A DNA stretch of 64,000 nt from the NCBI RefSeq assembly GCF_011064595.1, contig NZ_JAALJI010000008.1:186001-250000 (forward strand), written 5' to 3'. The number at the start of each line of letters is the position of its first letter. Position 1 is the stretch's first letter. The position numbers and the translations under genes are program-made. Source of the DNA: Paludisphaera soli. GTDB taxonomy: Bacteria; Planctomycetota; Planctomycetia; Isosphaerales; Isosphaeraceae. The notes under the pieces were generated by a model. It was not told the DNA's origin, did no database searches, and saw nothing but the letters and a program-made list of their open reading frames with translations. This document shows positions 4,502 to 33,902 of this stretch, piece after piece.

Positions 4502-4908
4502 CGGGGCTCATCCCCAACAAGACGTCCGTGCGCGTCCCTGACGTAGGAGTATCGGTATCGAGGCGGACCTGCCTGGGTCGCGGAGATATGGGGCCCGCAC
4601 GTGCATGCGCGGACGTAGGGCCAGCCCAACTATAGGCCCCTCGCCCGCCCCTGTCAATGACGGCCGCCCGCCTAGGATGGCCAAGTCGTGACGCCCCAAC
4701 GACCTGGGGATCGCCCGCGGCGCGGCGGCGGTCGGCCCGGGGGGCAAGTCGGGCCGGCGGGCGAAACCGACTCAAGCGGAAAATCTCGGAGGGCCGATAC
4801 AACCCCTGGTCGCGTCGGCTTCGGACGCCGGCCGGCCCGCCTCGGCGGCCGGATCGGGACGCGGTCGGGGCCGGGATGGACAGGACGGGAATCGCCAGGA
4901 GGCAGCGT
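4502..4908. other. Intergenic region between divergent kinase and cyclophilin genes
   Basis: This 407-base stretch separates two divergent genes. It holds the minus-strand sigma-70-type promoter described at 4629-4657. The plus-strand frame is open upstream of the cyclophilin start, but lacks a ribosome binding site and is Arg/Pro-rich, so it is treated as non-coding. No other feature was found. Confidence 0.6.
4629..4657 (-). promoter_or_regulatory. Predicted sigma-70 promoter of the kinase gene
   Basis: On the minus strand the -35 hexamer TTGACA (4652-4657) is a perfect consensus match. It is followed after exactly 17 bases by TATAGT (4629-4634). Transcription would start near 4622 and leave a leader of about 120 nt before the TTG start at 4501. 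This is the strongest consensus promoter seen in the window. Confidence 0.7.
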
Positions 4909-6393
4909 ATGTGGCACCGAGTCTTTCGGAGGAACCCGTCCCTTGCGAGGTCGCAAGCGAGCGGAGCACCCCAGAACGCCGCCCAGCGATCCAAGCGCCG
5001 GCCCGCCCTGGAGCCGCTCGAGACCCGCCAGCTGATGACCGCCTCGCTCGCCCCGATCCCCGACGTCGCGGCCCCCGCCGGGCAGGGCTATCAGCTCGCC
5101 CTGGACGGCAGCGCCAGCAACGCCCCGAGCCAGACCTTCACGGCCACCTCCGACAACCCCAACATCAAGGTGGACGTAGCCGACGGCCAGTTCTGGACGA
5201 TCCACGTCCAGCACCTCTCCTCCGAGACCGGCGACCCGACGATCCTGAACGAGCCGATGACCTTCCAGTTCTTCCCGGAGGTCGCCCCCAACACGGTCGA
5301 GCGGATCACCAACTTCAGCAACAACGGCTACTACGTCAACACCGGCCGGTTCTTCCCCCGCATCCTGGCCGGCTTCGTCGCCCAGGGCGGGTCCAACAGC
5401 GCGACCGGCACCGCGTCGTCGAGCGGGCTGCCGACGATCGGACTCGAGGTGGACCCGGCGGTCGACTTCAACAGCTACGGCCAGCTCGCCCTGGCCCGGT
5501 CCAGCTCGCCCGACTCGGGCGACGCCCAGTTCTTCATCACCTTCGGGCCCCAGTCCGCCCTCAGTCAGCAGTACACGATCTTCGGCCAGCAGGTCTCCGG
5601 CTTCGACACCCTCACCGAGCTGTCGCAGGTCGCCGTCAGCGCCCCGGCCGGGGGCAGCGAGGTCTCGGTGCCGGACAACCCGGTGACCATCGTCGGCTCC
5701 ACGATCACCGACACGAACCCCAACGGCGCCCTGCTGATCGACACCACGTCCGCCGGGCCGGGCCAAAGCGCCACGATCACCGTCACGGCGACCGACCCCG
5801 CGGACGGCACCACCAGCGTCCAGCGGTTCCGGGTCTTCACCGCCGGCGACACCACCGCCGTCCGCCAGATCGGCGACGTCCTGATCGCCCAGCCGCCGGC
5901 CCTCGGCAAGTTCTACGGCGGCACGAACACCATCGAGGTCAACCAGGTGCCGGCCCCCACGATCCCGGCCAGCCAGCGGATCCAGGTCGTCGTCAACGGC
6001 ATGCTCGACCGGATCCAGCCCTCGGCCGACGAGCTCTCGCAGATCGTCGCCTACGGCTCCAAGGCCAACGACCGGATCACGGTCTCCGACGACGTGCTGG
6101 TCCCGGCCACCGTGAACGGCGGCCTCGGCGGCCGGAACCACGTCAAGGCCGGCGGCGGCTACTCGATCGCCCACGGCTGGTTCGGCCACACCACCCTGGT
6201 CGCCGGCGAGGGGCCCAACCGCCTCATCGGCCGCGCCGGGCGGGTCCAGTTCCGGGCCAACGAGAACACCGCCTACGCCTTCGCCGGCAACGCCCGGGGC
6301 CGGGCCACCAACGGCCAGACCCTCAAGCCTGCCGGCACCTACTATCGGTTCCTCAACAACCGGCTCGTCCCGGTTCTCAAGATCAAGAACTGA
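4909..6393 (+). CDS. Secreted cyclophilin-type peptidyl-prolyl isomerase with planctomycete LEPR-like N-terminus
   Basis: The ATG at 4909 is chosen because AGGAGG lies six bases upstream (4897-4902); longer upstream frames have no such site. The N-terminus is basic and contains 'LEPLETRQLMTAS' at about residue 34, resembling the LEPR-x-LL motif found near the start of many exported planctomycete proteins. Residues of about 90-235 are a cyclophilin fold: 'FPEVAPNTVERITNF', 'GRFFPRILAGFVAQGG', 'AQFFITFGP' and 'YTIFGQQVSGFDTL' match the core blocks of the family, which isomerises Xaa-Pro bonds. The remaining ~250 residues are Thr/Gly/Asn-rich beta-type sequence with a glycine-rich repeat-like tail (GGLGGRNHVKAGGGY), perhaps an adhesion or anchoring module. 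Total length is 494 residues. A strong hairpin follows the stop. Confidence 0.85.
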   Translation: MWHRVFRRNPSLARSQASGAPQNAAQRSKRRPALEPLETRQLMTASLAPIPDVAAPAGQGYQLALDGSASNAPSQTFTATSDNPNIKVDVADGQFWTIHVQHLSSETGDPTILNEPMTFQFFPEVAPNTVERITNFSNNGYYVNTGRFFPRILAGFVAQGGSNSATGTASSSGLPTIGLEVDPAVDFNSYGQLALARSSSPDSGDAQFFITFGPQSALSQQYTIFGQQVSGFDTLTELSQVAVSAPAGGSEVSVPDNPVTIVGSTITDTNPNGALLIDTTSAGPGQSATITVTATDPADGTTSVQRFRVFTAGDTTAVRQIGDVLIAQPPALGKFYGGTNTIEVNQVPAPTIPASQRIQVVVNGMLDRIQPSADELSQIVAYGSKANDRITVSDDVLVPATVNGGLGGRNHVKAGGGYSIAHGWFGHTTLVAGEGPNRLIGRAGRVQFRANENTAYAFAGNARGRATNGQTLKPAGTYYRFLNNRLVPVLKIKN

Positions 6394-6495: not shown

Positions 6496-9045
6496 ATGAT
6501 CCCGCTCCCCATCGACCCCAGCCTGCCCAAGGTCCTCGACGCCCTCCGAGGCCGCGGGGCGCTGGTCCTGGTCGCGGAGCCGGGCTCGGGCAAGACGACC
6601 CGCGTCCCCCCCGCGATCGTCCGCGGCGGCGTCGAGGGCCGCGTGATCGTGCTCCAGCCCCGCCGGGTCGCCGCGCGGTCGACGGCCGCCCGGATCGCCG
6701 ACGAGCAAGGCTGGACGCTCGGCCGCGAGGTCGGCTACCACGTCCGGTTCGACCGCCGCGCCACGGCCGCCACGCGGCTCCTCATCATGACCGAGGGGAT
6801 CCTCACCCGGAGGCTCCTCGCCGACCCGTTCCTGGAGGGGGTCGGGACCGTCGTCCTCGACGAGTTCCACGAGCGGAGCCTGCACACCGACCTGGCGATC
6901 GCCCTGCTGCGCGAGGTCCGCCGCGAGGTGCGGACCGACCTCCGCCTCGTCGTGATGTCGGCCACGCTCGACGCCGGGCCGGTCGCCCGGTTCCTCGACG
7001 CCCCGGTGATCGAGGTCCCCGGCCGCACCTTCCCGATCGCCCTGAGCTACCGCGACGCCCCCCGGCCGGCCGACCCGGCGACCATCGCCGGGGCCGTCGC
7101 CGACGCCCTGGCCGAGCCCGCCGCCGACGCCCGGGGCCACGTCCTCGTCTTCCTCCCCGGCATGGCCGAGATCCGCCGCGCCCAGCGCGAGCTGGCGCCG
7201 GTCGCCGCCCGGTTCGACGCCCGCGTGCTGCCGCTCCACGGCTCGCTCCCGGCCGACGAGCAGGACGCCGCGCTCCGGCCCTCGCATCAACGCAAGATCA
7301 TCCTTTCCACGAACATCGCCGAGACCTCGCTGACGATCGACGGCGTGACGACCGTGATCGACTCGGGCCTGGCGCGGGTGGCCCGCCACGACGCCTCGCG
7401 CGGGCTCGACCGGCTGGACCTCCAGACCATCAGCAAGGCCTCGGCCGACCAGCGCGCCGGGCGGGCGGGCCGCACCGGGCCCGGGCGCGCGATCCGGCTC
7501 TGGTCGGAGCAGCGGCACGCCCTGCTGGAGCCGTTCGACGAGGCCGAGGTCCACCGCGTCGACCTGGGCTCCACCCTGCTGACGCTCCACTCCTGGGGCG
7601 TGACCGAGCCCGCCGCCTTCGGCTGGTACGAGCCCCCCGCCGCCGACCGGATCGAGGCTGCCGAGTCGCTTCTCGCCCGCCTCGGCGCGTTCGACGCCGC
7701 CACCCGCCGGATCACCCCCGTCGGCGGACGGATGCTCGCCCTGCCGGTCCAGCCCCGGCTCGCCCGGTTGCTCCTCGCCGCGGCCGACGAGGGGCTCCTC
7801 CACGAAGGCGCGGCGCTCGCCGCCCTGCTCTCGGAGAAGGACGTGGCCGAGCGCCGGCGCCCGGCGGGCCACCGGGGGCTCTCCGACATGCTGGGCCGGC
7901 TCGACCTGCTGGCCGAGGCCGAGGCCTCGCGGTTCGCCCCGGCGCTCCAGGCCCGGGGGATCGACGCCGTCGCGGCCCGGCAGGTCGCCAAGGTCCGCGA
8001 CGACCTCGCCCGACTGGCCTCGGGCCTGGGCCTCCCCGACCGCCCGTCGGCCCTGGACGACGACGCCCGCGAGGACGCCCTGCTCAAGCTCCTGATCCTG
8101 GCCTATCCCGACCGCGTCGTCCGGCGAAGGGGATCCGAAGAGACCGGCGTGATGGTCGGCGGCCGGGGCGTCCGGCTGGCCCGCGAGTCGGTCGTCCGCG
8201 AGGGGGAGTTCTTCCTGGCCCTCGACCCGCGCGAGGAACGCAACCGCCAGGGGGTGCTGGAGCTGATGGTCAACCTCGCCAGCGCCGTGCGGTTGGAGTG
8301 GCTGGAGGAGTTGGTGCCGCAGTCGATCCGCCGCGAGCGGAGCGTGGAGTACGACCTCGACCGGGAACGGGTCGTCGCCATGAACCGGCTCTGGTACGAG
8401 GATCTTTTGATCCGTGAAGATCCCGCCAAGCCCCCGGACTCTCGCGAGGCTTCCCGCGCCCTGTTCGAAGCACTCCGCCCCCGCGCCCGCGAGGTTTTCC
8501 AGGACGACGCGGCGGCCTCGGCCTGGCTCGCCCGCTACGACTTCGTCCGCGAGGCCGTCCCCGAGCTGGGTTGGTCGGAGCTGACGGACGAGGCCCTCGT
8601 CGGCCCGCTGGAGGTCCTCTGCCACGGCAAGACCCGGGCCGATCAGGTCCGCCAGGCGGGGAAGGTCCACTTTTTGGAGACCCTGATCGCCCCCGCCCAG
8701 GCCCGGGAACTGGCCGCCTGCGCCCCCGAGACCCTGACCATCCCCAGCGGCCGGGTCGTCCGCCTGACCTACGAGCCCGGCCGCCAGCCGACCCTGTCGG
8801 CCAAGCTCCAGGAGCTGTTCGGCTGGCCCGAGACCCCGCGCCTGGCCCGAGGCCGCGTGCCGCTCCTCCTGGAACTCCTCGGCCCCAACCAGCGCCCCGT
8901 CCAGGTCACGGCCGACCTCAAGAGCTTCTGGACCAACACCTACCACCAGGTCCGCAAGGACCTCCGCAACCGCTATCCCAAACACCCCTGGCCCGAAGAC
9001 CCCACCACCGCCCAGGCCCCCGTCCGGACGCCGCGGCCGCGATAG
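6496..9045 (+). CDS. hrpB: ATP-dependent RNA helicase HrpB
   Basis: This 849-residue DEAH/RHA-family helicase is full length for HrpB. Visible motifs are Walker A GSGKTT (30-35), motif Ia QPRRVAA (54-60), motif II DEFH (122-125), motif III SATLDA, motif V 'STNIAETSLTIDGV' and motif VI 'QRAGRAGRTGPG'. The C-terminal quarter carries the HrpB-specific domain, ending in the typical 'ADLKSFWTNTYHQVRKDLRNRYPKHPWPEDP'-type tail (roughly residues 810-840). HrpB is widespread in bacteria; its RNA substrate is not well defined. The gene lies on the same strand as the cyclophilin but about 100 bases downstream and behind a hairpin, so it may have its own promoter. Confidence 0.95.
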   Translation: MIPLPIDPSLPKVLDALRGRGALVLVAEPGSGKTTRVPPAIVRGGVEGRVIVLQPRRVAARSTAARIADEQGWTLGREVGYHVRFDRRATAATRLLIMTEGILTRRLLADPFLEGVGTVVLDEFHERSLHTDLAIALLREVRREVRTDLRLVVMSATLDAGPVARFLDAPVIEVPGRTFPIALSYRDAPRPADPATIAGAVADALAEPAADARGHVLVFLPGMAEIRRAQRELAPVAARFDARVLPLHGSLPADEQDAALRPSHQRKIILSTNIAETSLTIDGVTTVIDSGLARVARHDASRGLDRLDLQTISKASADQRAGRAGRTGPGRAIRLWSEQRHALLEPFDEAEVHRVDLGSTLLTLHSWGVTEPAAFGWYEPPAADRIEAAESLLARLGAFDAATRRITPVGGRMLALPVQPRLARLLLAAADEGLLHEGAALAALLSEKDVAERRRPAGHRGLSDMLGRLDLLAEAEASRFAPALQARGIDAVAARQVAKVRDDLARLASGLGLPDRPSALDDDAREDALLKLLILAYPDRVVRRRGSEETGVMVGGRGVRLARESVVREGEFFLALDPREERNRQGVLELMVNLASAVRLEWLEELVPQSIRRERSVEYDLDRERVVAMNRLWYEDLLIREDPAKPPDSREASRALFEALRPRAREVFQDDAAASAWLARYDFVREAVPELGWSELTDEALVGPLEVLCHGKTRADQVRQAGKVHFLETLIAPAQARELAACAPETLTIPSGRVVRLTYEPGRQPTLSAKLQELFGWPETPRLARGRVPLLLELLGPNQRPVQVTADLKSFWTNTYHQVRKDLRNRYPKHPWPEDPTTAQAPVRTPRPR

Positions 9046-9522
9046 CCCCGGGTTTGGCTTCGTTCGCGCCACCCCGAAGACGAACCCATCGGCCGCAACC
9101 ACACAACGCATAATCACTTAACCCGCGAACACGGCCCTCGAAATTGGCTTCGTTCGGCGCGCTTTCTCGATCACGCCCGCCCGATGCCGTCTCGGGCCAC
9201 TCGATCGATCTTCCTCCACGCAACCTCTGCGCGATTGGCTTCGTTCGCAGACGCGAAAGAGCGAAGCCATCGAACGCAACTCCTTTCCATAAAAGACATA
9301 AAACCCCAGACCCGCCCCTTCGAAATTGGCTTCATTCGGCGCGCTTGCCATGTTTTTCCTTCGACCTTACGAGGCTGAGGCGACGCCGCTTCCAGGTTCT
9401 CAGGTCGGCCGGCCCGGCGTCCCTCGTCGGCTCGCGAAGGATCGTCGAGATTGCGGCGCGCACCATCCCCCAGGCTGACAGTGCCTCCCGTTCGCGAGAT
9501 GGAGAGGCCCGATCCCGGAGGG
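9046..9522. other. Gene-free stretch carrying an array of spaced repeats
   Basis: No credible coding region is present in these 477 bases. Several small open frames on both strands are low-complexity and are explained by the repeats at 9053-9350. The stretch has more A and T than its surroundings. From 9350 to 9522 nothing was recognised. Confidence 0.6.
9053..9350. repeat. Four copies of a ~20-nt element at ~90-nt spacing
   Basis: The core ATTGGCTTCGTTCGGCGCGC occurs in recognisable form at 9053-9070, 9139-9162, 9231-9250 and 9321-9347, with start-to-start spacings near 90 nt. Related copies occur at 56711-56732 and 56803-56823, also about 90 nt apart, in the opposite orientation. Some copies are followed by a complementary segment (GGCTTCG ... 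CGAAGCC at 9237-9272), so hairpins are possible. Short spurious proteins with 'NEPN' or 'RTKPIS' strings in planctomycete annotations appear to arise from such repeats; that link is from memory. Confidence 0.65.
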
Positions 9523-10447
9523 TCAGGGGGAATCAAAGCGAAGCGTCTCGCCCGGCCGGAGGGTCGCGCTGCGCCGAGCGATCTCCCTCGGGGCGGCGAG
9601 GTAGGGGTGTTCGACGACGCGGAGCTGGTATTCGCCGGGCTTGAGGCCGTCGGCCTCGAACTCGATCGGATCCGCTGGAGACGGCGTGCGGGTCCAGGAC
9701 CGGGCCGCGAAGCCGACCGTGACCATCTGGACGGGCCGTCAGCCGGGCGATGAGGTGCACGGGCCAGTCCAGCCGGCGAACGTGGGCCATCTCGTGGGCG
9801 AGGACGGCCCGGCGCGTCGGCTCGGGCCAGGTCGCCGCCTCGGCGGGGAGTATCACGACGGGCCGGAGCACGCCCCAGGTCGCGGGGATCGTGGCGTCCT
9901 CGCCCATCCGCACGTCGACCCGACGGCGGATCGCGAAGGTCGCGCGGAGTTCGGCGACGAGGTCGGCCCAGTCGGCCACCGGCCGGGAACGGCGTCGGCG
10001 GCGAGCGTTGATCGCGAGGCCGGCCAGCACGGGCAGGGCGGTCGCGAGGGCACCGCCGGAATAGGCGAGCGTCCAGGCGTCGGGGAGCCGGGACGCGAGA
10101 GGAGGGGATTCGGGCGAAGCCCGTTCCGCGGGCATCGGCTGGGCTTCGCGGAAGACGACCCGTTCGGGCTCAGGCAGCAGGTCGGGTAGGACGCTCGGGC
10201 GGATAGGCCCGGGGGCCGTCGGGAGGATCGACATGGGTTCCCGCTTTGGCGCGGGGAGGATCGGCAGGGGCCACGCCGGGTCGAGGGCCGAGGCGACGGG
10301 GACCGCGATCAGGCCCAGGAGGGCGCTCGCCCAGACGCGATGGCGGAAGGCCGCCGAGCCGCGACGGGCGATCGCGGCGACGAGGGCCGCGAGGAGCAGG
10401 AGGGCCGTCGAGCGGACGGCCGCGTCGACGATCAGGTCGCGTGCCAT
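9523..10447 (-). pseudogene. Remnant of a BlaR1-type M56 peptidase gene with large internal loss and frameshift
   Basis: From the ATG at 10447 the frame encodes N-terminal membrane segments and an M56 peptidase domain as far as 'VLAHEMAHVRRLDWPVHLIARL', including the HExxH-type zinc motif HEMAH. Intact M56 proteins then continue with an E-R-x-x-D-D zinc-ligand segment and more membrane helices. Here the frame breaks off near 9740 into unrelated Arg/Pro-rich sequence. In another frame, from about 9726 to 9523, lies what looks like the extreme C-terminus of a long regulatory-domain protein ('GLKPGEYQLRVVEHPYLAAPREIARR', read here in two parts). The simplest reading is that a long M56 gene lost most of its middle and shifted frame. 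It follows the blaI-like gene by one base, the normal gene order for a BlaI/BlaR1 pair. Confidence 0.75.
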
Positions 10448-10448
10448 G

Positions 10449-10841
10449 TCATTTCTCCTGGTCCCGGGCCTGGCGGATCAGCGCCTCCAGGCGGTCGAGG
10501 TCGTCTTCGGAAAGCTTCGCAACCGAGGGGTCCAGGATCGCCTCGACGGCCGCGGCGGCCGAGCCGGCGAAGAACGTCCGCATCAGGTCCTTGAGCGCGG
10601 AGGTCTTCGCCGCATCTCGCGAATGGGCGGGGCGGTAGACGTACCGGATCCCTTCCTGACGGTGCCGCAAGAGCCCTTTCGCCTCCAGGGAGCGGACCAT
10701 CGTCCGCACCGACGAGTAGCTCGGCGGGTCCGCCAGCTCGGCCAGCACCTCGGCCACCGACGCCTCGCCCAGGCGGTAGACCGCGTCCATGATCTGGCGC
10801 TCCCGGGCGCCCAGGCCGTCCCTCGGATCGCGCTTCGGCAT
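10449..10841 (-). CDS. BlaI/MecI/CopY-family transcriptional repressor
   Basis: The start at 10841 (MPKRDPRDGLGARERQIMDAV) is preferred because GGGAGG lies about ten bases upstream and the frame further upstream is the operator region. The 130-residue protein has the family's winged helix: 'LGARERQIMDAVYRLGEASVAEVLAEL' followed by the recognition part 'SYSSVRTMVRSLEAKGLLRHR' and the wing 'RYVYRPAHSR'. The C-terminal half is the helical dimerisation part. Such repressors bind palindromic operators and are usually inactivated by a membrane M56 sensor peptidase encoded next door. The next gene here is an M56 remnant, so the repressor may have lost its partner. It probably represses its own promoter through two palindromes at 10864-10897. 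Confidence 0.9.
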   Translation of the reverse strand: MPKRDPRDGLGARERQIMDAVYRLGEASVAEVLAELADPPSYSSVRTMVRSLEAKGLLRHRQEGIRYVYRPAHSRDAAKTSALKDLMRTFFAGSAAAAVEAILDPSVAKLSEDDLDRLEALIRQARDQEK

Positions 10842-23343: not shown

Positions 23344-24945
23344 TCACGCCTTCTTGGCCGGCTTCTTCGACTCCTCCTGCGGGTTCGGCGGGGGCTCCAT
23401 CCCCTCCTCGTCGCCGGTGCGGTAGAGGGGGAGGTAGCGGTAGTAGACCTCCAGCGTGAGGATCGAGAGCGAGGTCTGGAAGAGCCGGCCGCCGGTGTTG
23501 CCCCAGCGGTCCTGGCTGGGGGAGGCGGGGTCCCAGCTCCCGTTCGGGCAGCCGTCGTCGCGGACCTGGGTGCGGATCAGGGCCTCGCGGACGTGGGGAT
23601 TCCAGCGCTCCCAGTCCTTGTTCCGCATGTTGTGGAGGAGCTGGGTCGCGTAGTACCAGTAGTAGATGTTCCGGTCTTCGGACTTCTCCAGGTGGGCGGC
23701 GACGCGGCCGGCGCCCTTGATGAGCGACGGATGATCGCGAGACCAGCCGAGGATCTGGCGGCCGACGAGGGCCTCGGCCGTCATCACGGGCGAGGCTTCC
23801 CCCCGGCCCGGCTGGTAGGCGTAGAGCACCTTCTTGCCGTCGGCGGCGGCCAGGTTCAGGTACTCGGTGCAGCCGCGGAGGGTCTGTCGGGGGATGGGAA
23901 GGCCGGCGAGGTCGGCGCTGCGGAGGGCGAAGATGTTCCAGCCGAAGACGGAGGTGTCGCCCGCCTGGCCAGGCCGATACCGCCAGCCGCCGGTCTGAGG
24001 GTCCTGGGCCTCGACGATGAACGCGACGGCGCGGGCGGCGGGCTCGCGGAGCGTCGGGTCGCGCGAGAGGCCGTAGGCCTCGCAGAGGGCCATCGAGGCG
24101 ATGGCGTGGCTGTAGAGCCAGCCGATGCCGGTCCCGCCGACGTGGAGGTCGCCGTTCTCCTGCTGGTTGGCGCAGAGCCATTCCAGCCCCCGACGCACGG
24201 CCGCCTGGTGCCGGCTCTTGACGGTGTGGCTGTAGCCCGCGCCCAGCAACGGCAGCAGGGCCAGGCCGGTCGCCCCGGTCGGCGAGAGGATCGCGCCCTG
24301 CGACGGGCAGGACTGACAGACCTCGCTCGCGTCCAGCACCCACGAGCCGTCGGCCTTCTGGTGGCGGACGATCCAGGCCAGGCCGTCCTCGACGGACTTC
24401 TCGGATTGGACCGTCCCCCCCTCGCGACGCACCAGCTCGGCGCGGCCGAGGCCGGATCGGCCCGAGAACGGCGCCTGGATGTTCGCGGCCAGGCCGGGCA
24501 GCGGGGCGACTCCCATCAGCGAGGGCGCCAGGTCGCGGCTCGGGGCAGGGCCCTCCGCCTCGGGGGCGAACGCCACCAGGCCGGGAAGCTCGGGCTGGTT
24601 CGTCAGCTTCATCAGCGGGTCGTCCGGGCCGAAGCCCATCGACGGCGGGTTCGGGTCGTCGACGTCGGTGAACGGGTCGCCCGCCCGGTCGGCCTCGACG
24701 AGCGAGGTCAGGTCGGCGATCTCGCCCGGGGCGATCTCCGAGGCGAACGAGCGCTCCGGCTCGATGGGCCCGGACGTCTGGATCAGGAAGGCCAGGACCA
24801 GCAGGACGAAGGCGTGCAGGAGCACGCTCACGCCCCAGGATGGGACCGACCGCAGCGTCTCGACGTCGATCTCGCGGCCGTTCCACGCCATCGAGACCCG
24901 CCCGACGCGGTCCAGGATCCTCAGCGGCAACTCGCGGAGCCTCAT
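23344..24945 (-). CDS. Membrane-anchored terpenoid-cyclase-fold (prenyltransferase/squalene oxidase repeat) protein
   Basis: The 533-residue protein has one membrane segment (about 37-56, 'WGVSVLLHAFVLLVLAFLIQ'), a low-complexity linker, and from about residue 180 a set of alpha/alpha-barrel repeats of the squalene-cyclase/prenyltransferase type. Repeat hallmarks include 'GLAWIVRHQKADGSW', 'GLEWLCANQQENGDL', 'AVAFIVEAQDPQTGGWRY' and 'GRLFQTSLSILTLEVYYRYLPLY'. The DxDD motif of true squalene-hopene cyclases is absent, so it is probably not a cyclase. The fold is shared with other extracytoplasmic helical-toroid proteins. It is clearly paralogous to the 701-residue protein at 30777-32882; both have the 'NIYYWYYAT / NVYYWYYAT' and 'GSWDP' blocks. 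The function is unknown; an envelope-associated scaffold or binding role is inferred. Confidence 0.85.
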   Translation of the reverse strand: MRLRELPLRILDRVGRVSMAWNGREIDVETLRSVPSWGVSVLLHAFVLLVLAFLIQTSGPIEPERSFASEIAPGEIADLTSLVEADRAGDPFTDVDDPNPPSMGFGPDDPLMKLTNQPELPGLVAFAPEAEGPAPSRDLAPSLMGVAPLPGLAANIQAPFSGRSGLGRAELVRREGGTVQSEKSVEDGLAWIVRHQKADGSWVLDASEVCQSCPSQGAILSPTGATGLALLPLLGAGYSHTVKSRHQAAVRRGLEWLCANQQENGDLHVGGTGIGWLYSHAIASMALCEAYGLSRDPTLREPAARAVAFIVEAQDPQTGGWRYRPGQAGDTSVFGWNIFALRSADLAGLPIPRQTLRGCTEYLNLAAADGKKVLYAYQPGRGEASPVMTAEALVGRQILGWSRDHPSLIKGAGRVAAHLEKSEDRNIYYWYYATQLLHNMRNKDWERWNPHVREALIRTQVRDDGCPNGSWDPASPSQDRWGNTGGRLFQTSLSILTLEVYYRYLPLYRTGDEEGMEPPPNPQEESKKPAKKA

Positions 24946-25209: not shown

Positions 25210-25950
25210 TCAAGCCTGGGGGGCGTCGGGCGTGGGGACCGGGGGGGCCGGGATCGAAGGGGCCGCGGGGGTCGCCGGGATGCTGGGGGCCTCGGGGGCC
25301 GGGGGGACCGAAGGAGCCGGGGCCGGCGGGGGCTCGTCCGAAGCGGGGGCCGGGGCCGGGGCGGCCGGGGCGGCTTCAGCCGGAGCAAACTGGCCGGCCG
25401 GGGCGACCTTGGCGGGAGCATAAGGGGCCTGGGCGACCGGCGCCACCTTGGCGGGAGCGACCGGGGCCTGAGCGACCGGGGCGACCTTCGACGGGGCGTA
25501 GCCCTGGGGGGCGGCGGCCGGAGCCGGGGCGACCTTGGTGGGCGCGACCGGGGCCTGGGCGACCGGCGCGACCTTCGACGGGGCGGCCGGGGCATAGCCC
25601 TGGGGGGCGGGGGCCGGAGCCGGCGCGACCTTGGTGGGCGCGACCGGGGCCTGCGCGACCGGCGCGACCTTCGACGGGGCGGCCGGGGTGTAGCCCTGGG
25701 GGGCGGGGGCCGGAGCCGGCGCGACCTTGGTGGGCGCGACCGGGGCCTGCGCGACCGGAGCGACCTTCGACGGGGCGGCCGGGGCGTAGCCCTGCGGGGC
25801 GGCGGCCGGGGCCTGCGCGACCGGAGCGACCTTCGACGGGGCGTAGCCCTGCGGGGCGGCGGCCGGAACCTGCTTGGACGGGACCTGAGCATGAGCGGTC
25901 GAAGCCGCCAGGGCTACCGCCGCCACGCCGAACAACCGAGTGCGAAGCAT
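25210..25950 (-). CDS. Secreted Ala/Pro/Val-rich tandem-repeat protein
   Basis: The ATG at 25950 has GGAG nine bases upstream and starts a signal peptide, MLRTRLFGVAAVALAASTAHAQ, with cleavage after AHA. The mature protein (~225 residues) is almost entirely Ala, Pro, Val, Lys, Gln and Gly. It is built of a 32-residue unit, roughly PQGYAPAAPSKVAPVAQAP followed by VAPTKVAPAPAPA, present in three near-identical copies plus partial ones. The last ~60 residues are an acidic Pro/Ala tail (SDEPPPAPAPS...). There is no enzymatic motif; the sequence should be extended and may span or decorate the cell envelope. Repeat number is likely to vary between strains. The gene stands alone, closed by a strong terminator. 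Confidence 0.8.
   Translation of the reverse strand: MLRTRLFGVAAVALAASTAHAQVPSKQVPAAAPQGYAPSKVAPVAQAPAAAPQGYAPAAPSKVAPVAQAPVAPTKVAPAPAPAPQGYTPAAPSKVAPVAQAPVAPTKVAPAPAPAPQGYAPAAPSKVAPVAQAPVAPTKVAPAPAAAPQGYAPSKVAPVAQAPVAPAKVAPVAQAPYAPAKVAPAGQFAPAEAAPAAPAPAPASDEPPPAPAPSVPPAPEAPSIPATPAAPSIPAPPVPTPDAPQA
25499..25786 (-). repeat. Three 96-bp tandem repeats inside the repeat-protein gene
   Basis: The marker TAGCCCTG recurs at 25499, 25595, 25691 and 25787, exactly 96 bp apart, and once more at 25843 after a shortened unit. The units differ by only a few bases, many synonymous, which suggests recent duplication or ongoing homogenisation. Confidence 0.85.
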
Positions 25951-26526
25951 TGTTGCAATCTCCACGGAGACCGGATCCAGGAAGCGGAACACTCGAAGAC
26001 GTTTCCGAGTACGCAGTCTGGCCCGACCTTTCCCACTATACTAGATAACCAACTGCGTGCTCTGGGCGTTCTGCGAATTTTCAGCAGAATAAATCGACCC
26101 TAAGGCCGTGTCCAGTATTTCTCGGAAGGAACTTCGAGAATTCAGGACCACCTGAACGCCCAGGTTGACCACGTTGTCTGCAAAAGATAGACCGAGGGGG
26201 CGAAATTTTCAGGGCCTCGTCCCGCTCGGAACCTCGTACTGAGCCTTCCGGGCGAAAGGCCGGTGTTTGTCCCTGTTCTGGAGAGTCTAGCATGCCGATT
26301 CCTCTCAAGGAGGATCGCCGGGCGGCCCAAGGCCCGCGACGACGGTTTTCTCGCGGAGGGTTGAGCCGGGCGAAGGACGGCCGATAATAGAGGTCTTGCC
26401 GGCGGGCGGAGCGGGGGGCGGGATGGATCGACCGCTCCTATCGCGGCGGCCTTGCGTCCGATTGCTAGTACGCGGCGATCGCCCGGAACGTTGGGGGGTC
26501 GACCGCGACCAGGGAAGGGGTGGCGA
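25951..26526. other. Divergent intergenic region of about 580 bases
   Basis: This separates the secreted repeat protein (minus) from the TPR gene (plus). It is AT-richer than the surroundings, especially at 26030-26200 (e.g. CTATACTAGATAACC). A weak TTGACC-17-TAGACC pair occurs at 26165-26193 on the plus strand. The frame upstream of the TPR start is open but has no ribosome binding site. No gene was found. Confidence 0.5.
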
Positions 26527-29500
26527 TTGATCGGCCTCGTCGCGAACGAGCGTTTCGGGGGCCAGCGAGCCGGACGGGCCCGGCTTGCGCCCGGGGCCCT
26601 GCTCCTGCTGGCGTTGCTCGGACTCGGAGGCGGGGGCTTCGGCCAGGACGCCGCCGCCCCGGCCTCGCGAATGCCCGAGGGGCTCCGGTTCGCCCACGGC
26701 CTGTTCCGTCAGCGCAAGTTCGACCTGGCGGCCGACGAATACGCGAAGTTCCTGGAGACGGATCCTGGGCCGCCCCACGGGGACGACGCCCGCTTCGGCC
26801 TCGCCAGCGCGAGGCTCCTCCAGGGCCGCTATCAGGAGTCCCGCGACGCCTTCCGCGAGTTCCTCCGCCGGGCTCCCGACCACGCGCGAGCCCGGACGGC
26901 CCTGTACCGCCTCGGCGAGCTGTCCTACATGCTCGGCGACCTCCCCGCGGCCCGCGAAGCTCTGGAGCGGTTCACGGACGACCCCGACGACCATCCCAAT
27001 TTGGAGACCGCCTGGACCTACCTGGGCGACGTCCGCACCGCGCTGGACGACCCGGCGGCGGCCCGATCCGCTTATGAACAATCCTTGAAGCGATTTCCCG
27101 AGGCGAGGCTGGCGGACCGGGCCCGCTACGGCCTCGGCCGGGCGCTGGCGACCCTCGGCGAGTCCCAGCCGGCGCTCGACGTGCTGGAGGGGTTGATCCG
27201 CCGCGAGCCGGCCGAGTGGGTGGACAAGGCGCGGCTCCAGGTGGGCCGGATCGAGTTGGCCGCCGGCCGGTTCGAGGCCGCCGAGAAGACCCTGGCGAAG
27301 GTCGCCGGCCCCGGCCCGCTCCAGGCCGAGGCCCGACTCCGCCGCGCCCAGGCCCTCGCGAGGCTCGACCGCCTCGAAGAGGCCGCCGACCTTTTGCGGC
27401 CGCTCGCCGCCGACGCCGCCGAGCCGGCGTCGCTGGAGGCGAGCCTGGAGGCGGCCGGCGTCGACCTCCGACGCGACCGCGCCGCCGACGCGCTCCGGAT
27501 TCTGGACGACGCCATCCCCCGCGCCGTTGAATCGCCCCTCGCCGCCGCCCTGACCTACCGATCGGCCGAGGCCCTGCGCGCCCAGGGCCGCGACGCCGAG
27601 GCGCGCGGGCGATTCCTCAAGGCGGCCGAGGCCGCCCCCGCCGCCGCGCCCTGGGCCGACGACGCCTGGCTCGAAGCCGCCCGCCTCGCCCACCAGGCCG
27701 GCGACCACGACGCGGCCGGGAAGCTCGCCGACGACTTCGCCGCGAAGTTCCCCGACAGCGAACGGCTCCCCGACGTGCTCCTGATCCAGGCCCGGTCCGC
27801 GACCGCCGCGAAGCGCCCCGAGGCGGCCGTCGCCGCGCTGGAGAAGCTGCTCGGCGAAGGCGGTGGGAAACCGCTCGACGCCTCGCCCGAGGTGCTCGAC
27901 GCCGCCCGTTACGAGCTGGCGCTGGCCTATCGCGCGACCGGCAAGGCCGAACGGGCCGACGCCCTGCTGGCGACGCTGGCGGGGTCGTCGAAGAAGGGGA
28001 CGGCGGCCGATGCGGCCTTCCTGCTGGGCCAGGACCACCTGGAGGCCGGCCGCTTCGCCGAGGCCGCCGCCGAGTTCGAACGCTCGCTCGCCGCCGCGCC
28101 CGACGGCCAGGTCGCCGACTACGCCCTCGCCCACGAGGCCGCCGCCTACCTGGGGCTCGGCCGTCGCGACGACGCGATCGCGACGCTCGGCCGGCTCGCC
28201 GAGCGGTTCCCCAAAAGCCTCGCGCTGCCGCCGGCCCGGCTGCGGCTGGCGGAGGCCCTCGTCGCGGCCGGCGAGCTGCCGAAGGCCGTCGACCAGTTCC
28301 GGCCCCTCGTCGAATCCACGGAGCCGGTCCCGGCCGAACTTCGGGAACGGGCCGAGCTGGGCCTGGCCCGCGCCCTGGGGAAGCAGGGCGACGGGGACGC
28401 GGCGGCGAAGGCCTTCGACGCGATCCTCGCGCGGACGACCGACGAGGCCCGCGCGGCGGACCTGGCCCTCGAACGCGCCCGGGCCGTCGAGGCGACAGGC
28501 AAGCCCGAGGAGGCGATCGCCGCCTACGAGGCGGTCGAGGCCCGCGCGCCGAAGCTCGACGCGGCGCTCTTCGCCGCGCTCGCCCGGTCGCGGCTGCTGG
28601 CCAAGGATCACCCCCAGCAGGCGGCCGAGCTGATCGGAAAGCTCGTGGACGGCGACGAGGCCCGCGCGCGGCTGAAGGCGATCGGCCAGCCGCTCGACGC
28701 CCTGCTCGCCGAGCGCGGCTGGGACTGGATCGACGCGGGGAAGCTCGACGAGGCCGACCGGGCGTTCGCCGAGCTGCTCCGGGACTTTCCGGAGGGCCCG
28801 TACGCGGCCGACGCCCGCTTCAACCTCGCCGAGTCGGCCAACGAGCGGAAGGATTTCGCCGAAGTCGTCCGCCTGCTCGAGCCGCTGGTCGAGCCCGCCT
28901 CGCCCGACGCGCCGAAGCTCCCCGAACGGCTCGCGGCCGACGTCCTTTACCGCCTGGGCCGGACCCGCGTCGAGCGCGGCGAGTGGGCCGAGGCCGCCGC
29001 GACGCTCGACCGCCTGATCGCGGAGGCCCCCGCGAGCCCCCGGATCCGCGAGGCCCGCTTCCTCCGCGCCGAGGCCGCGCTGCGGCAGGACCAGTTCGAG
29101 CCGGCGGAGAAGCTTCTGGCCGACCTGATCGCCGAGCCCGCCTCGCCCGACGACCCGCCCGATCTCCTGAGGCTGGCGAGGGAGCGTCGCGTGCAGTGTC
29201 TCCTCGGCCTGAAGCGCTGGCAGGCCGCGCTCGACGAGGCCGACGCGCTCAAGGGGACGATCGCCGAAGCCGCCGCGAAGGACCCGGTGGAATTCGCCCG
29301 GGGTCGCGCGCTGCTGGGCCTCGGCCGCCCCGAAGACGCCCGCTCGGCGTTCCAGGCCGTGATCGACTCGCGCCAGTCCGGCGACCTCGCGGCCCAGGCT
29401 CAGCTGATGCGCGGGGAGGCGTTCTTCCACGAGGACAAGTTCCTCCAGGCCCTCACCGAGTTCCTGAAGGTCGACGTCCTCTACGACGCCCCGCGCCGCC

Positions 29501-29670
29501 AGGCCGCGGCCCTTCTGGAAGCCGGCAAGGTCTACGAGCGCCTCGCCCGCTGGCCCGAGGCCGCCGAGACGTATGAACGCCTGACGACCCGTTTCCCCGA
29601 AGACCCCTGCGCCGTCGAGGCCGAGGCCCGCCGCAAGGCCGTCCTCGCCGAGCACGGGGCGAAGCCGTGA
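26527..29670 (+). CDS. Large exported TPR-repeat protein
   Basis: The TTG at 26527 is chosen because AAGGGG lies six bases upstream. The N-terminus then has basic residues followed by 'LAPGALLLLALLGLGGGGFGQDAA', a likely signal peptide. The 1047-residue protein is made of tetratricopeptide-like helical pairs throughout: 'LFRQRKFDLAADEYAKFLETDP', 'YRLGELSYMLGDLPAAREALERF', 'LAESANERKDFAEVVRLLEPL', 'AQLMRGEAFFHEDKFLQALTEFLKV'. It is very rich in Ala, Glu and Arg. Periplasmic TPR proteins usually act as assembly scaffolds (BamD or YbgF/CpoB-like). It stands first in a plus-strand run with a MotA/TolQ/ExbB-like gene 97 bases downstream, a context recalling Tol-Pal-associated CpoB, although the protein is far longer. 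Confidence 0.88.
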   Translation: MIGLVANERFGGQRAGRARLAPGALLLLALLGLGGGGFGQDAAAPASRMPEGLRFAHGLFRQRKFDLAADEYAKFLETDPGPPHGDDARFGLASARLLQGRYQESRDAFREFLRRAPDHARARTALYRLGELSYMLGDLPAAREALERFTDDPDDHPNLETAWTYLGDVRTALDDPAAARSAYEQSLKRFPEARLADRARYGLGRALATLGESQPALDVLEGLIRREPAEWVDKARLQVGRIELAAGRFEAAEKTLAKVAGPGPLQAEARLRRAQALARLDRLEEAADLLRPLAADAAEPASLEASLEAAGVDLRRDRAADALRILDDAIPRAVESPLAAALTYRSAEALRAQGRDAEARGRFLKAAEAAPAAAPWADDAWLEAARLAHQAGDHDAAGKLADDFAAKFPDSERLPDVLLIQARSATAAKRPEAAVAALEKLLGEGGGKPLDASPEVLDAARYELALAYRATGKAERADALLATLAGSSKKGTAADAAFLLGQDHLEAGRFAEAAAEFERSLAAAPDGQVADYALAHEAAAYLGLGRRDDAIATLGRLAERFPKSLALPPARLRLAEALVAAGELPKAVDQFRPLVESTEPVPAELRERAELGLARALGKQGDGDAAAKAFDAILARTTDEARAADLALERARAVEATGKPEEAIAAYEAVEARAPKLDAALFAALARSRLLAKDHPQQAAELIGKLVDGDEARARLKAIGQPLDALLAERGWDWIDAGKLDEADRAFAELLRDFPEGPYAADARFNLAESANERKDFAEVVRLLEPLVEPASPDAPKLPERLAADVLYRLGRTRVERGEWAEAAATLDRLIAEAPASPRIREARFLRAEAALRQDQFEPAEKLLADLIAEPASPDDPPDLLRLARERRVQCLLGLKRWQAALDEADALKGTIAEAAAKDPVEFARGRALLGLGRPEDARSAFQAVIDSRQSGDLAAQAQLMRGEAFFHEDKFLQALTEFLKVDVLYDAPRRQAAALLEAGKVYERLARWPEAAETYERLTTRFPEDPCAVEAEARRKAVLAEHGAKP

Positions 29671-29767
29671 GGGAGGCCATGTGTGATCTCCCGTTCCCCC
29701 CGGTTGGGGAAGGGCCTTGAGAATGGGAATCGGACGGACCGCGGAAGACCTGGGAAGGAGCCCGTTG

Positions 29768-30667
29768 ATGAGCGCTGGGAATCGGAGCAGGCGGGCCTTG
29801 GCGGCGTTCGTGGGGGCCATGTTGCTGACCTCGGCGACGGCCTGGGCCGGGGAGCCCCGGGCGGACCTCTCGGTCGAGGTCCAGCGCCGGCTGGCGCGGG
29901 CGGCGGGCGACGTGCTCGTTTGGTACGAGCGGACGCCGGCCGGCGAGCGGATGGCCTGGGGCGGGCTCGGCGCCTGCGTGGTGCTGGGCGTCTGCGTGAC
30001 GCTGGAGCGGCTGTTCCGCCTGCGACGACGCGCCGTCATCCCGAACGACTTCCTCGCCCGGTTCCTGGACCGGCTCCACGAGGGGAAGCTCGACGGCGGC
30101 AAGGCGCTCGACTACTGCGAGATGAACCCCAGCCCCGCCGCGCGCGTGGCCCTGGCCGCCGTCCGGCGCTGGGGACGCCCGGCCGTGGACCTGGAGCGAG
30201 CCGTGGGGCTCGCGCATCGCTGGGAGTCGGAGCAGCTCCGTCGCAACGTGGGCACGCTGCGGCGGATCACGGCCCTGGCCCCGCTCGTCGGCCTGCTCGG
30301 CTCGCTGCTGACCGCCGACCGCCTGATGCGCGAGGCCGGCGAGGCCGCGCCCGGCTGGCCCGCCCTGGCCGACGCGCTGGCCCCGCTGATCTTCGGCGTG
30401 GGCGTGGGGGTGGTCGCGATGGTCCTCTACGACCTGCTGACGACCCGCGTCGAACGCCTGGGAGCGGCCCTGGACCGGCTGGGCGCCGAGACGATCGACG
30501 CCGTCGCCATGACCACCGTCGTCGCCGCGCCGACGCTCGGGTCGCATCCGTCGTCGCCGCACATCCGCCTGGGAGAGCCCCTCGTCGACCGCCGGCCGAC
30601 CGTGGCGGTCCCGGTCCGCGAGGCGGCCCCGCGTCGCCTCCGCGAAGACCCCTCGATCGGGGCCTGA
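29768..30667 (+). CDS. MotA/TolQ/ExbB-type proton channel family protein
   Basis: The ATG at 29768 follows GGAAGGAG with seven bases between. The 299-residue protein has a signal or first hydrophobic segment (10-28), a TM at about 65-82 ('GLGACVVLGVCVTLERLF'), a cytoplasmic stretch, and two further TMs. Of these, 'LRRITALAPLVGLLGSLLTA' and 'LIFGVGVGVVAMVLYDLLTTRVE' match the paired helices of TolQ/ExbB/MotA, including the typical APLVGLLG pattern. These proteins form proton channels that energise outer-membrane or periplasmic partners, normally together with an ExbD/TolR subunit. No ExbD/TolR gene is visible in the window, which is odd. The next gene encodes an N-terminally anchored terpenoid-cyclase-fold protein that might be the partner. 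Confidence 0.85.
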   Translation: MSAGNRSRRALAAFVGAMLLTSATAWAGEPRADLSVEVQRRLARAAGDVLVWYERTPAGERMAWGGLGACVVLGVCVTLERLFRLRRRAVIPNDFLARFLDRLHEGKLDGGKALDYCEMNPSPAARVALAAVRRWGRPAVDLERAVGLAHRWESEQLRRNVGTLRRITALAPLVGLLGSLLTADRLMREAGEAAPGWPALADALAPLIFGVGVGVVAMVLYDLLTTRVERLGAALDRLGAETIDAVAMTTVVAAPTLGSHPSSPHIRLGEPLVDRRPTVAVPVREAAPRRLREDPSIGA

Positions 30668-30776
30668 GGCCCGAGGCGGCGCGTCGCGTCGGGTGCGGAA
30701 TCCGGGGCGTTCGGTTATGCTGGCGACGTCGTAGGGATGCGAGCCCCGGCCCCCAGGCGAGACGAGGCGTGAGGCG

Positions 30777-32882
30777 ATGACCGGACTGGACCTGGAATCG
30801 TTCCTGCTCCTGCTCAAGGCCGATCTCGGCGGATGGGCGCTCGTCGCCCTGGGCTGCCTGATGCTGGCGATCCTGGTCTGGGTGAGCTGGGGGTCGCGGC
30901 AGGCGATCCGCAAGTGCCTGGCGCTCTCGATCGCGCTCCACGCGGCGCTCTTGCTCGGCGGCAGCAGCGTGCCGGCCGTCATGCGGGCCCTGAACCCCCA
31001 GAAATCCGAGGACGACGGCGAGGGGCACATCCGGAGGATCCGCGTCTCGCCCGTCGCCGATCCCGATTCCGCCGACCCTTCGGACGACGTCCGGGCCCTC
31101 GCCGCGCTCGACGGGGCCCGGCCGGCCGGCCCCGCGCCGGTCGACCGGCTCGACGAGCCGATCGCACTGGCGGCCCGCCGGGTCGACGCGGCGAGGCCGG
31201 CGATCGACCCCGAGTCGGCCCGCGCGCCGATCCCCGAGCCGTCGCAGCCGCCGCCCCTGGAGACGGCCGAGGCCACGCCCGCGCTCCCCGCGCTGCCGGT
31301 CTCGGCACCGCCCTCGACCGAGGAGGTGACCCCCGCCGGGCCCGCCCCGCTCCCCGCCGTCGCTCCCCCGGAGGCCGTCGCCTCGGCGGGGGACGAGACG
31401 CTGAGCGCGCCCGAGGTCCCCCGGCCCGAGCCCCCTCCCGAGGCCGAGTCGGCCGAGCCCGCCCGGGGCAACGTCCCCCTGGCGAGCGGCGGGAGGCTCC
31501 GCTCGGTTCGGCCCGAGTCCCGCCCCCGCCCGGAATCCGCGCCCCGGGTCGAGCCTCCGGCGGAGAAGCCCGCGTTCCCGCCCCTGGCCCTGGCGACGCC
31601 CCTGCCGGTCCCCGCCCCTCGGCCCGAGCCGGCGCTGGCCGACCTCTCCGCGCCCCGGACGCCGATCACCGAGGTTCCGCGGATCTACCGTTCGCGGCTC
31701 GACGCCGACCGCTCCGCGCGGGCCGAGCGGTCGGGGGCGAGCCCGGCCAGCGAGCAGGCGGTCGAGCGGGCCCTGGACTGGCTCTCCCGCCACCAAGACT
31801 CCGACGGCCGCTGGGACGGCGGCACCGCCCGCTACGCCGACGGCGAGGTCGTCCCCGGCGACGACGACTTCACCGTCCACTGCCCCGCCGGCCAGGCCTG
31901 CTTCGGCGAGTGCGCCTACTGGGAGGCCGACACCGGCCTGACGGCCCTCGCCCTGCTCACCTTCCTGGGGGCGGGGTACACCCACGAGGACGGCAAGTAC
32001 GCGACCACGGTCTCGCGCGGGCTCGGGTTCCTCCTGCGCCAGCAGAAGCCCGACGGCGACCTGCGGGGCGTCAGCAACACCGTCGGCATGTACTGCCACG
32101 CGATGGCCACGCTCGCCCTGTGCGAGGCCTACGCCCTCTCGCTCGACGAACGGCTCCGCACCGGCGCCGAGCGCGCCCTCGGCTTCCTGGCGAAGGCCCG
32201 GGCGCGCGACGGCCTCTCGTGGCGCTACGCCCCCGGCGCGTCGGTGGGGGACACGAGCATCCTCGGCTGGGTCGTCATGGCGCTCAAGTCGGCCAGCGAG
32301 ATCGGCGTGCCGATCGCGGACCAGCCGTCGCTGGAGAAGGGGGCCGCAACCTGGCTCGAACGGGTGGCCGACGGCGACGCCAAGGGGCTGGCGAAGTACC
32401 AGCCGTGGGAAGACGTCACCCCCACGATGACCGCCGAGGCCTGGGCCTGCCGCCAGTTCCTCGGCCTGGGCGGGCCCGGCCCCGCCAGCACCGAGGCCGC
32501 CGCGTTCCTCCTCAAGCACGACTCCGACAAGGGCAAGACGAACGTCTACTATTGGTACTACGCCACCCTGGCCATGTATCAGCACGGCGGCCGCCCCTGG
32601 GCCGAGTGGAACGGCCGCATTCGCGACCGCCTCGTCGCCCTCCAGCGCCCGACGGGCCACCAAGCCGGGAGCTGGGACCCCGACGACAGCGTCTACGGGG
32701 CCCGCGGCGGCCGCGTCTACACCACGGCCCTCGCCGCCCTCAGCCTGGAAGTCTACTACCGCTACCTCCGCCTCTACGACAAGCCGAGCCTCGCCGAGGA
32801 CCACGTCGAAGGCGACGACGACGAACTCCCCGACCCCGCGCCCGCGCTCGAACCTCCCGCCGCCGCGACCCGGCGGCGCTGA
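30777..32882 (+). CDS. Membrane-anchored terpenoid-cyclase-fold protein with proline-rich linker
   Basis: The 701-residue protein starts at an ATG just after GTGAGGCG. It has two N-terminal hydrophobic segments (about 18-37 and 47-62), a long Pro/Ala/Glu linker (about 95-315), and alpha/alpha-toroid repeats from about 330 to 690. Repeats include 'ALDWLSRHQDSDGRWDGG', 'GLGFLLRQQKPDGDLRG', 'ALGFLAKARARDGLSWRY' and 'GRVYTTALAALSLEVYYRYLRLY'. Cysteines in 'FTVHCPAGQACFGECAYW' suggest a disulfide-linked insert. No DxDD catalytic motif is present. The layout of a TM anchor, Pro-rich spacer and periplasmic domain resembles TonB/TolA organisation, and the preceding gene is ExbB/TolQ-like. Energy transduction to this protein is inferred, not shown. 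It is a paralog of the protein at 23344-24945. Confidence 0.87.
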   Translation: MTGLDLESFLLLLKADLGGWALVALGCLMLAILVWVSWGSRQAIRKCLALSIALHAALLLGGSSVPAVMRALNPQKSEDDGEGHIRRIRVSPVADPDSADPSDDVRALAALDGARPAGPAPVDRLDEPIALAARRVDAARPAIDPESARAPIPEPSQPPPLETAEATPALPALPVSAPPSTEEVTPAGPAPLPAVAPPEAVASAGDETLSAPEVPRPEPPPEAESAEPARGNVPLASGGRLRSVRPESRPRPESAPRVEPPAEKPAFPPLALATPLPVPAPRPEPALADLSAPRTPITEVPRIYRSRLDADRSARAERSGASPASEQAVERALDWLSRHQDSDGRWDGGTARYADGEVVPGDDDFTVHCPAGQACFGECAYWEADTGLTALALLTFLGAGYTHEDGKYATTVSRGLGFLLRQQKPDGDLRGVSNTVGMYCHAMATLALCEAYALSLDERLRTGAERALGFLAKARARDGLSWRYAPGASVGDTSILGWVVMALKSASEIGVPIADQPSLEKGAATWLERVADGDAKGLAKYQPWEDVTPTMTAEAWACRQFLGLGGPGPASTEAAAFLLKHDSDKGKTNVYYWYYATLAMYQHGGRPWAEWNGRIRDRLVALQRPTGHQAGSWDPDDSVYGARGGRVYTTALAALSLEVYYRYLRLYDKPSLAEDHVEGDDDELPDPAPALEPPAAATRRR

Positions 32883-32903
32883 CCTCTCGACGAGGCCTCA
32901 TCC

Positions 32904-33902
32904 ATGACCCGATTCCAGGCGATCCGGCGGACGATGGGCGGCCTGGCTGCTCTGGCGACGAGCCTCGTCGCGGCCGGGGCCGAAGAACCTGCCCCCCGGC
33001 CGCACGCCGATTACACCGAGACCATCCCCGGCTCGGACGTCCGCTTCCCGATGGTCGCGATCCCCGGCGGGACCTTCGCGATCGGCAGTCCGCCCGGCGA
33101 GCCGGGCCGCCGCGACCACGAGGGCCCGCGCCGCCCGTTGAAGATCCGCCCGTTCTGGATGGGCAAGTTGGAGGTCACCTGGGACGAGTACGGCGAGTTC
33201 CGCAAGGTGATCGGCTCGAACCGCAAGAACGCCGAGGCCCTCGCGAAGGACGCCGACGCGGTCACGCATCCGACGGCGCCTTACCCCGACGAGACGTTCG
33301 GCTACGGCCGCAAGGGGCGGCCGGCGATCCTGATGAGCCATCACGCGGCGATGGAATACTGCTACTGGCTTTCCAGGAAGACCGGCAAGGCGTACCGGCT
33401 GCCCACCGAGGCCGAGTGGGAATACGCCTGCCGCGCAGGGACCGAGACCGCCTACTCCTTCGGCGACGACCCGAAGAAGCTCGACGACTACAGCTGGTTT
33501 TTCGGGAACGCCGAGAAGCCCATGCCGGTCGGCAAGAAGAAGCCCAACCCATGGGGCCTCTTCGATATGCACGGCAACGTCGCCGAGTGGTGCCTCGACC
33601 GCTACGCCGCCGACGCCTATGCCGGGCTCCCTCAGGACCGCCCCGCCGTCGGTCCCGTCCTCTTACCGACGGCGGCCCTCTACCCGCACGTCGCCCGGGG
33701 CGGTTCCTGGGACGATGACGCGCCGAAATGCCGGAGCGCCGCCCGGCGGGGCTCGGAACCGAAGTGGAACGAGATGGATCCCGACGGCAGCATCTGGTGG
33801 GTTTGGGACGCCCCCTTCGTCGGCTTCCGCGTCGTGCGGGCGGTCGAGGAGCAGGAGGACCTCGAAGGGCTTCGCTCGCAGGTCCGCAAGCCGGCCCGTT
33901 GA
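32904..33902 (+). CDS. Formylglycine-generating-enzyme (SUMF1)-like secreted protein
   Basis: The 332-residue protein starts 21 bases after the previous stop, with GAGG upstream. Residues 1-26 look like a signal peptide. The rest is an FGE-sulfatase fold: 'FPMVAIPGGTFAIGSPPGE', 'PFWMGKLEVTWDEYGEF', 'AYRLPTEAEWEYACRAGT', 'NPWGLFDMHGNVAEWCLDRY', 'VARGGSWDD', 'GFRVVR'. True formylglycine-generating enzymes need two active-site cysteines near the C-terminus. Here the segment after GGSWDD reads 'APKCRSAARRG', with one cysteine, so sulfatase activation is doubtful. Many planctomycete members of this fold are binding or structural proteins. It probably forms an operon with the upstream cyclase-fold and ExbB-like genes. 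It converges on the permease gene with a 19-base gap. Confidence 0.88.
   Translation: MTRFQAIRRTMGGLAALATSLVAAGAEEPAPRPHADYTETIPGSDVRFPMVAIPGGTFAIGSPPGEPGRRDHEGPRRPLKIRPFWMGKLEVTWDEYGEFRKVIGSNRKNAEALAKDADAVTHPTAPYPDETFGYGRKGRPAILMSHHAAMEYCYWLSRKTGKAYRLPTEAEWEYACRAGTETAYSFGDDPKKLDDYSWFFGNAEKPMPVGKKKPNPWGLFDMHGNVAEWCLDRYAADAYAGLPQDRPAVGPVLLPTAALYPHVARGGSWDDDAPKCRSAARRGSEPKWNEMDPDGSIWWVWDAPFVGFRVVRAVEEQEDLEGLRSQVRKPAR

Follow-up and report, generated by a model that had tools for sequence, protein, structure and literature searches.

What ExbB/TolQ-type motors drive in planctomycetes is the question raised by a gene set in Paludisphaera soli (family Isosphaeraceae, 7.97 Mb genome), located in a 64,000-nucleotide stretch of contig NZ_JAALJI010000008.1 that is referred to here as the window. 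Its plus strand encodes, in order, an exported TPR protein, an ExbB/TolQ-like protein, a 701-residue protein that ends in an alpha/alpha toroid, and an FGE-fold protein. All four open reading frames (ORFs) are open at the positions given in an original prediction made from the DNA alone, and Pfam agrees with the families that it named. That prediction took the set for a proton-driven trans-envelope machine in which the toroid replaces the usual TonB/TolR module. We think it fairly probable that the 701-residue protein transmits force in the manner of TonB/TolA from an anchor in the inner membrane, with the toroid as its tip and a motor supplied as proposed below.

The 701-residue protein is predicted to have two N-terminal transmembrane (TM) helices, followed by a long, disordered, proline-rich stretch and then the toroid. 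The second TM helix is preceded by a run of positively charged residues and bears Ser51-x-x-x-His55. In TonB and TolA the motif is Ser-3x-His-6x-Leu-3x-Ser (SHLS), and its Ser and His touch TM1 of ExbB/TolQ, according to the available text of PMC12905483. Ser51 and His55 are invariant in 16 of 16 aligned Isosphaeraceae sequences. They are also invariant in all 26 sequences of a wider alignment, which includes 15 from other families at 34%–38% identity and in which M1 and P197 are the only other invariant residues before position 300. The linker is rich in proline, unconserved in sequence, and modeled with a predicted local distance difference test score (pLDDT) below 50 at residues 74–143 and 159–277. 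The anchor, spacer, and end domain first likened to TonB/TolA are all present, and the plan of SxxxH helix, proline-rich linker, and periplasmic toroid is supported.

The motif was followed in toroid proteins at 30 loci outside Isosphaeraceae, chosen from the listed high-scoring toroid-profile matches, one per genome, with two families (f3 and f8) absent. By reading, SxxxH lies within a TM helix in 28 of these loci, at residue 182 in one (L154). The other two (L169 and L184) have AxxxH, and an SxxxH match outside a TM helix in L169 was not counted. Within Isosphaeraceae, 37 of 38 toroid ORFs have the motif, and the exception (L163) starts at a contig edge. Another 21 toroid proteins, from 20 secondary loci, have SxxxH (17/21), AxxxH (n = 2), or SxxxN (n = 2). 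As a control, one automatic scan identified the motif in 2 of 147 non-toroid proteins containing a hydrophobic stretch, a background restricted to ORFs with strong third-position GC and thus drawn mostly from high-GC genomes, versus 52 of 68 toroid proteins, a count that reflects the scan's strict hydrophobicity threshold and differs from those made by reading. A diverged, TM-anchored paralogue that the original prediction did not mention lies in the window, across the TPR gene from the 701-residue protein; the two are 39% identical over the toroid (E value 5.7e-63), and SxxxH occurs in all four genus relatives found for the paralogue. Toroid proteins lacking an SxxxH anchor also exist, such as a 391-residue protein elsewhere in the P. 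soli genome. Variation in architecture was seen as well: proteins at some of the 20 secondary loci have an N-terminal CxxC segment resembling a zinc ribbon, and at a locus of family f3 (L237, positions 1968–5492, minus strand) the protein after ExbB-ExbD consists of PD40 beta-propeller repeats, then an SxxxH helix, then a toroid.

The toroid itself was modeled with pLDDT values mostly above 90, except at about residues 350–380 and 640–643. A structure search matched it to squalene-hopene cyclase 2sqc with a Z score of 26.6 and a root-mean-square deviation of 3.2 over 290 aligned residues. Many other alpha/alpha toroids were close behind, and the matched folds include cyclases, epimerases, and GH76. 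Sequence similarity to cyclases is weak and lies around QW-like repeats. By inspection, no conserved columns of DXDD, which we take to be the catalytic motif of type II terpene cyclases, occur in the 16- and 26-sequence alignments; the domain is therefore treated as a putative binding domain, probably without cyclase activity. The Pfam scan of the 701-residue protein gave SQHop_cyclase_C only, with no TonB-type C-terminal domain (PF03544, PF13103) and no vWA match.

Gene neighborhoods differ between Isosphaeraceae and other families. Outside Isosphaeraceae, the toroid gene is preceded by ExbB and ExbD genes at 24 of the 30 loci, which represent 17 families, and in each of these loci ExbD stands between the other two. 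The remaining six comprise three loci with ExbD but no ExbB, one with neither gene, and two (L151 and L152) in which the upstream sequence is unreadable. Upstream TPR genes were identified at 19 of these 30 loci. In Isosphaeraceae, a TPR gene precedes ExbB at 29 of 33 ExbB loci, and a toroid gene is at most 2.5 kb downstream in 23, with no ExbD near the ExbB in any of the 33 (ORFs of at least 80 residues, E value 1e-4). There is also no ExbD on the window's contig; the seven ExbD matches in the P. soli genome are distributed over four other contigs, and every one has an ExbB as its neighbor. The locus itself thus has no visible ExbD/TolR, as originally reported. That ExbB-like proteins of these operons have no ExbD partner elsewhere was borne out only in part, given the 24 outside loci.

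The ExbB-like protein of the window belongs to the MotA/TolQ/ExbB family by both sequence and fold. Its model has a pLDDT of 77.1, with TolQ (Z 16.6) and ExbB (Z 15.9) as best matches, and this window-type ExbB is kept in 35 of 45 Isosphaeraceae genomes (hand count). According to the available text of PMC12905483, Thr148 and Thr181 of Escherichia coli ExbB and Asp25 of ExbD are essential. When aligned, the P. soli protein shows A in the first pore threonine column and L in the second. Among window-type ExbB, T occurs at the first pore position in 1 of 34 sequences and at the second in 0 of 34, where L predominates. The second threonine is present in all 64 other ExbB in the alignment, from which 10 of 26 further planctomycete ExbB-match ORFs had been dropped (domain not found or row identical). 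These 64 are toroid-locus ExbB (24/24), the second-pair ExbB described below (21/21), and other ExbB (19/19). Loss of the second pore threonine and the lack of a linked ExbD make it doubtful that the ExbB of the operon itself supplies a proton drive, and the window type probably no longer conducts protons.

A related motor is encoded elsewhere. The nearest other ExbB in the P. soli genome lies on another contig, and an ExbD adjoins this second ExbB in 21 of 21 Isosphaeraceae loci checked. Its first pore position is T in 19 and S in two, and its second is always T. When searched with a profile of toroid-locus ExbD, the second-pair ExbD of P. soli scored 124.6 bits, compared with 66.0 for the genome's next-best ExbD. 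The hand count placed the second-pair ExbB in all 35 Isosphaeraceae genomes having the window type, plus five with the second pair alone. In a phylogenetic tree thinned from 98 to 87 rows by removal of 11 of the 34 window-type sequences, a single branch separates toroid-locus, window-type, and second-pair ExbB from 19 other ExbB (support 98), and the stem of the window type is long (1.97). The second ExbB-ExbD pair is the likely working motor for the Isosphaeraceae toroid protein.

Force transduction would then proceed as follows. The SxxxH helix of the 701-residue protein would dock on an ExbB pentamer, the proline-rich linker would span the periplasm, and the cyclase-fold toroid would grip a partner located in the periplasm or at the outer membrane, with the exported TPR protein as a candidate. 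In other planctomycete families the motor ExbB and ExbD would usually come from the same operon. In Isosphaeraceae the operon would have been left with a divergent and probably non-conducting ExbB, and the related pair elsewhere would serve as the motor. Since the operon outside Isosphaeraceae usually reads ExbB-ExbD-toroid, the toroid would take the place of the TonB/TolA tip and not that of ExbD, so that of the TonB/TolR replacement first suggested, the TonB part appears to hold and the TolR part is not supported.

Several observations weigh against a toroid-tipped transducer powered in this way. The 701-residue protein has two TM helices, as opposed to the single helix of TonB, and its SHLS motif is incomplete, with an invariant Gly62 at His+7 (16/16) and no conserved Ser at His+11. 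The first pore position of ExbB is not diagnostic, since T occupies it in 21 of 24 toroid-locus ExbB versus just 4 of the 16 unrelated ExbB from planctomycetes, and the second position carries the weight. In 21 of 34 window-type ExbB, the window's own not among them, a T lies one residue past that second position, so the window type may still conduct protons. Toroid-locus ExbB have the TM3 Pro, which neither the window type nor the ExbB of the second pair retains, and the window type lacks the TM1 Ser as well. Both residues are linked to TonB/TolA docking in the available text of PMC12905483, and the docking surfaces of the window-type and second-pair ExbB may differ as a result. The variable first position and the missing docking residues lower our confidence slightly. 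Linkage is also incomplete: at 10 of the 33 Isosphaeraceae loci, ExbB has no toroid gene at up to 2.5 kb (it lies 6 kb away at one, and three are near contig ends), and 14 of the 20 secondary toroid loci have no ExbB in the stretch examined. Finally, the grouping of window type and second pair has a support of only 83, and alternative placements were unrejected (approximately unbiased test, P values of 0.49 and 0.39).

Other explanations were weighed against the same evidence. The toroid protein could be an enzyme or a binding protein that is anchored in the membrane and happens to be encoded in ExbB operons, with SxxxH simply packing the anchor and no force transmitted. The fold is typical of enzymes and the secondary loci often stand apart from ExbB, as such a protein would allow, but most of those unlinked copies retain the motif at the kind of position where TonB and TolA dock. 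With DXDD unconserved and both motor genes linked at most outside loci, we regard this explanation as unlikely. The original prediction would have the toroid protein stand in for ExbD; its first TM helix, preceded by Asp16, could then act as the transpore helix of an ExbD-less ExbB. Asp16 lies in a conserved N-terminal segment (30777–30884) and is nearly invariant in Isosphaeraceae, where the locus has no ExbD, and ExbD-less pairs of TolQ and vWA proteins with a transpore Asp have been published (PMC12204202, in the portion available). However, Asp16 is unconserved in toroid-protein relatives whose operon retains ExbD, as outside operons usually do. Positively charged residues separate the two helices, which suggests an orientation of the first opposite to that of ExbD, and the second pore threonine, which would hold such an Asp, is missing. 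This substitution appears quite improbable.

A third possibility, compatible with the transducer we prefer, is simple decay of window-type ExbB in an operon that is being reduced to TPR and toroid genes alone and is served by the second pair. At two loci (L156 and L164) these genes are direct neighbors and the stretch yielded no ExbB, and the long stem branch fits as well. Retention of the window type in most Isosphaeraceae genomes, its own invariant residues, and its intact predicted fold argue instead for a role that was kept but changed, and we consider decay possible but doubtful.

The nearest published analogue of the proposed transducer is the group of vWA-domain force transducers (Williams-Jones et al. 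2025, PMC12204202). As described in the available part of that paper, these share a TolA/TonB-like TM helix (with SHLS), a disordered linker, and a foreign C-terminal domain. In the Planctomycetota-Verrucomicrobiota-Chlamydiota (PVC) group they often occur near TPR and TolQ-like genes, with their function unassigned. They differ in having a vWA domain in place of the alpha/alpha toroid and, according to the same part, a TolR-like gene pair where toroid loci have one ExbD or none; the 701-residue protein also has two TM helices. An operon of the vWA kind was observed elsewhere in P. soli (L051, positions 6927–10715, minus strand), where ExbB-ExbD-ExbD is followed by a 349-residue SxxxH-anchored vWA protein near an H+-pyrophosphatase gene.

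The TonB-ExbB-ExbD and TolA-TolQ-TolR systems are alike in the SxxxH helix, proline-rich linker, periplasmic end domain, and, at 24 of 30 outside loci, ExbB/ExbD neighbors. Unlike them, the 701-residue protein has no TonB-type C-terminal domain, an incomplete SHLS motif, and two TM helices, and the Isosphaeraceae locus has no ExbD. Squalene-hopene cyclase and small type II terpene cyclases (2sqc, 8paj, and MstE 6sbb) share the toroid fold; the 701-residue protein differs from these in lacking a conserved DXDD, in having a single toroid, and in its TM anchor and long linker. By membership it is neither a TonB nor a vWA transducer, and it looks to work like them. No paper on toroid-tipped transducers was found in the open-licence literature searched.

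Features of the window are listed in the table. The predicted co-occurrence of four families holds for the TPR-ExbB-toroid neighborhood and fails for the FGE-like gene, which was found at 2 of 33 Isosphaeraceae loci, both in the same genus; a four-gene system that includes it was therefore rejected, and the gene is a neighbor only. By inspection, its product has Ser at the expected second catalytic Cys and a nearby Cys off the canonical spacing, judged against the FGE cysteine motif and spacing that we presume to apply, and the canonical pair of cysteines seems to be missing. The Pfam scan gave no match for the Pro/Ala-rich repeat protein, and no RNA families or tRNAs were detected in the window at the thresholds used.

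Table. Positions of the toroid-protein locus and flanking features in the window.
Feature	Position	Strand	Basis and remarks
Diverged toroid paralogue, 533 residues: single TM helix with SxxxH (Ser40, His44), linker, toroid	23344..24945	-	ORF; protein comparison with the 701-residue protein
Exported Pro/Ala-rich repeat protein; membership uncertain	25210..25992	-	Between paralogue and TPR gene; matches in loci of some relatives
TPR protein, exported, ~1047 residues	26527..29670	+	Open ORF; Pfam TPR repeats; heads the conserved set; a TTG at 26452 could also be the start
ExbB/TolQ-fold protein, divergent type, 316 residues	29717..30667	+	PF01618 (MotA_ExbB), 36.9 bits, cut-off 22.9
Candidate TonB/TolA-like transducer, 701 residues: two TM helices, Pro-rich linker, alpha/alpha toroid	30777..32882	+	ORF; SQHop_cyclase_C, 27.8 bits, cut-off 26.1
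Ser51-x-x-x-His55 codons, second TM helix (TonB/TolA-type docking motif)	30927..30941	+	Invariant in aligned relatives, 16/16 and 26/26
Toroid domain, residues 314–671 of the 701-residue protein	31716..32789	+	Structure model and 2sqc match
FGE-fold protein; neighbor, outside the conserved set	32904..33902	+	PF03781 (FGE-sulfatase), 146.2 bits

Toroid-profile matches are widespread in planctomycetes. They occur in 248 of 248 sampled genomes of the class and in 149 of 157 genomes of a phylum sample, tallies that count profile matches and not anchored proteins. Several matches per genome were observed in the 12 genomes of other families searched. ExbB was present in 13 of 13 genomes searched for it. 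Recognizable TonB components are less common in the class sample: the TonB C-terminal domain was identified in 17 of 98 genomes, TonB_2 in 13, and the TonB-dependent-receptor plug in 27. None of the three was found in the 25 Isosphaeraceae genomes sampled, P. soli included, with the models used, which diverged TonB domains may escape. We regard it as about evenly balanced whether planctomycetes have, class-wide, a set of transducers of the proton motive force in which a catalytically dead, enzyme-derived toroid replaces the TonB/TolA tip, mostly in genomes without a recognizable TonB domain, and whether one family has remodeled the ExbB of its operon into a non-conducting partner subunit, with a related ExbB-ExbD pair providing the power. 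Such proteins widen the published idea that ExbB/TolQ-type motors drive envelope machines of unassigned function. With a conserved anchor that has a single testable histidine, the question of what planctomycete motors drive becomes approachable and, if confirmed, the toroid proteins would represent an undescribed envelope machine in a group mostly without ordinary TonB.
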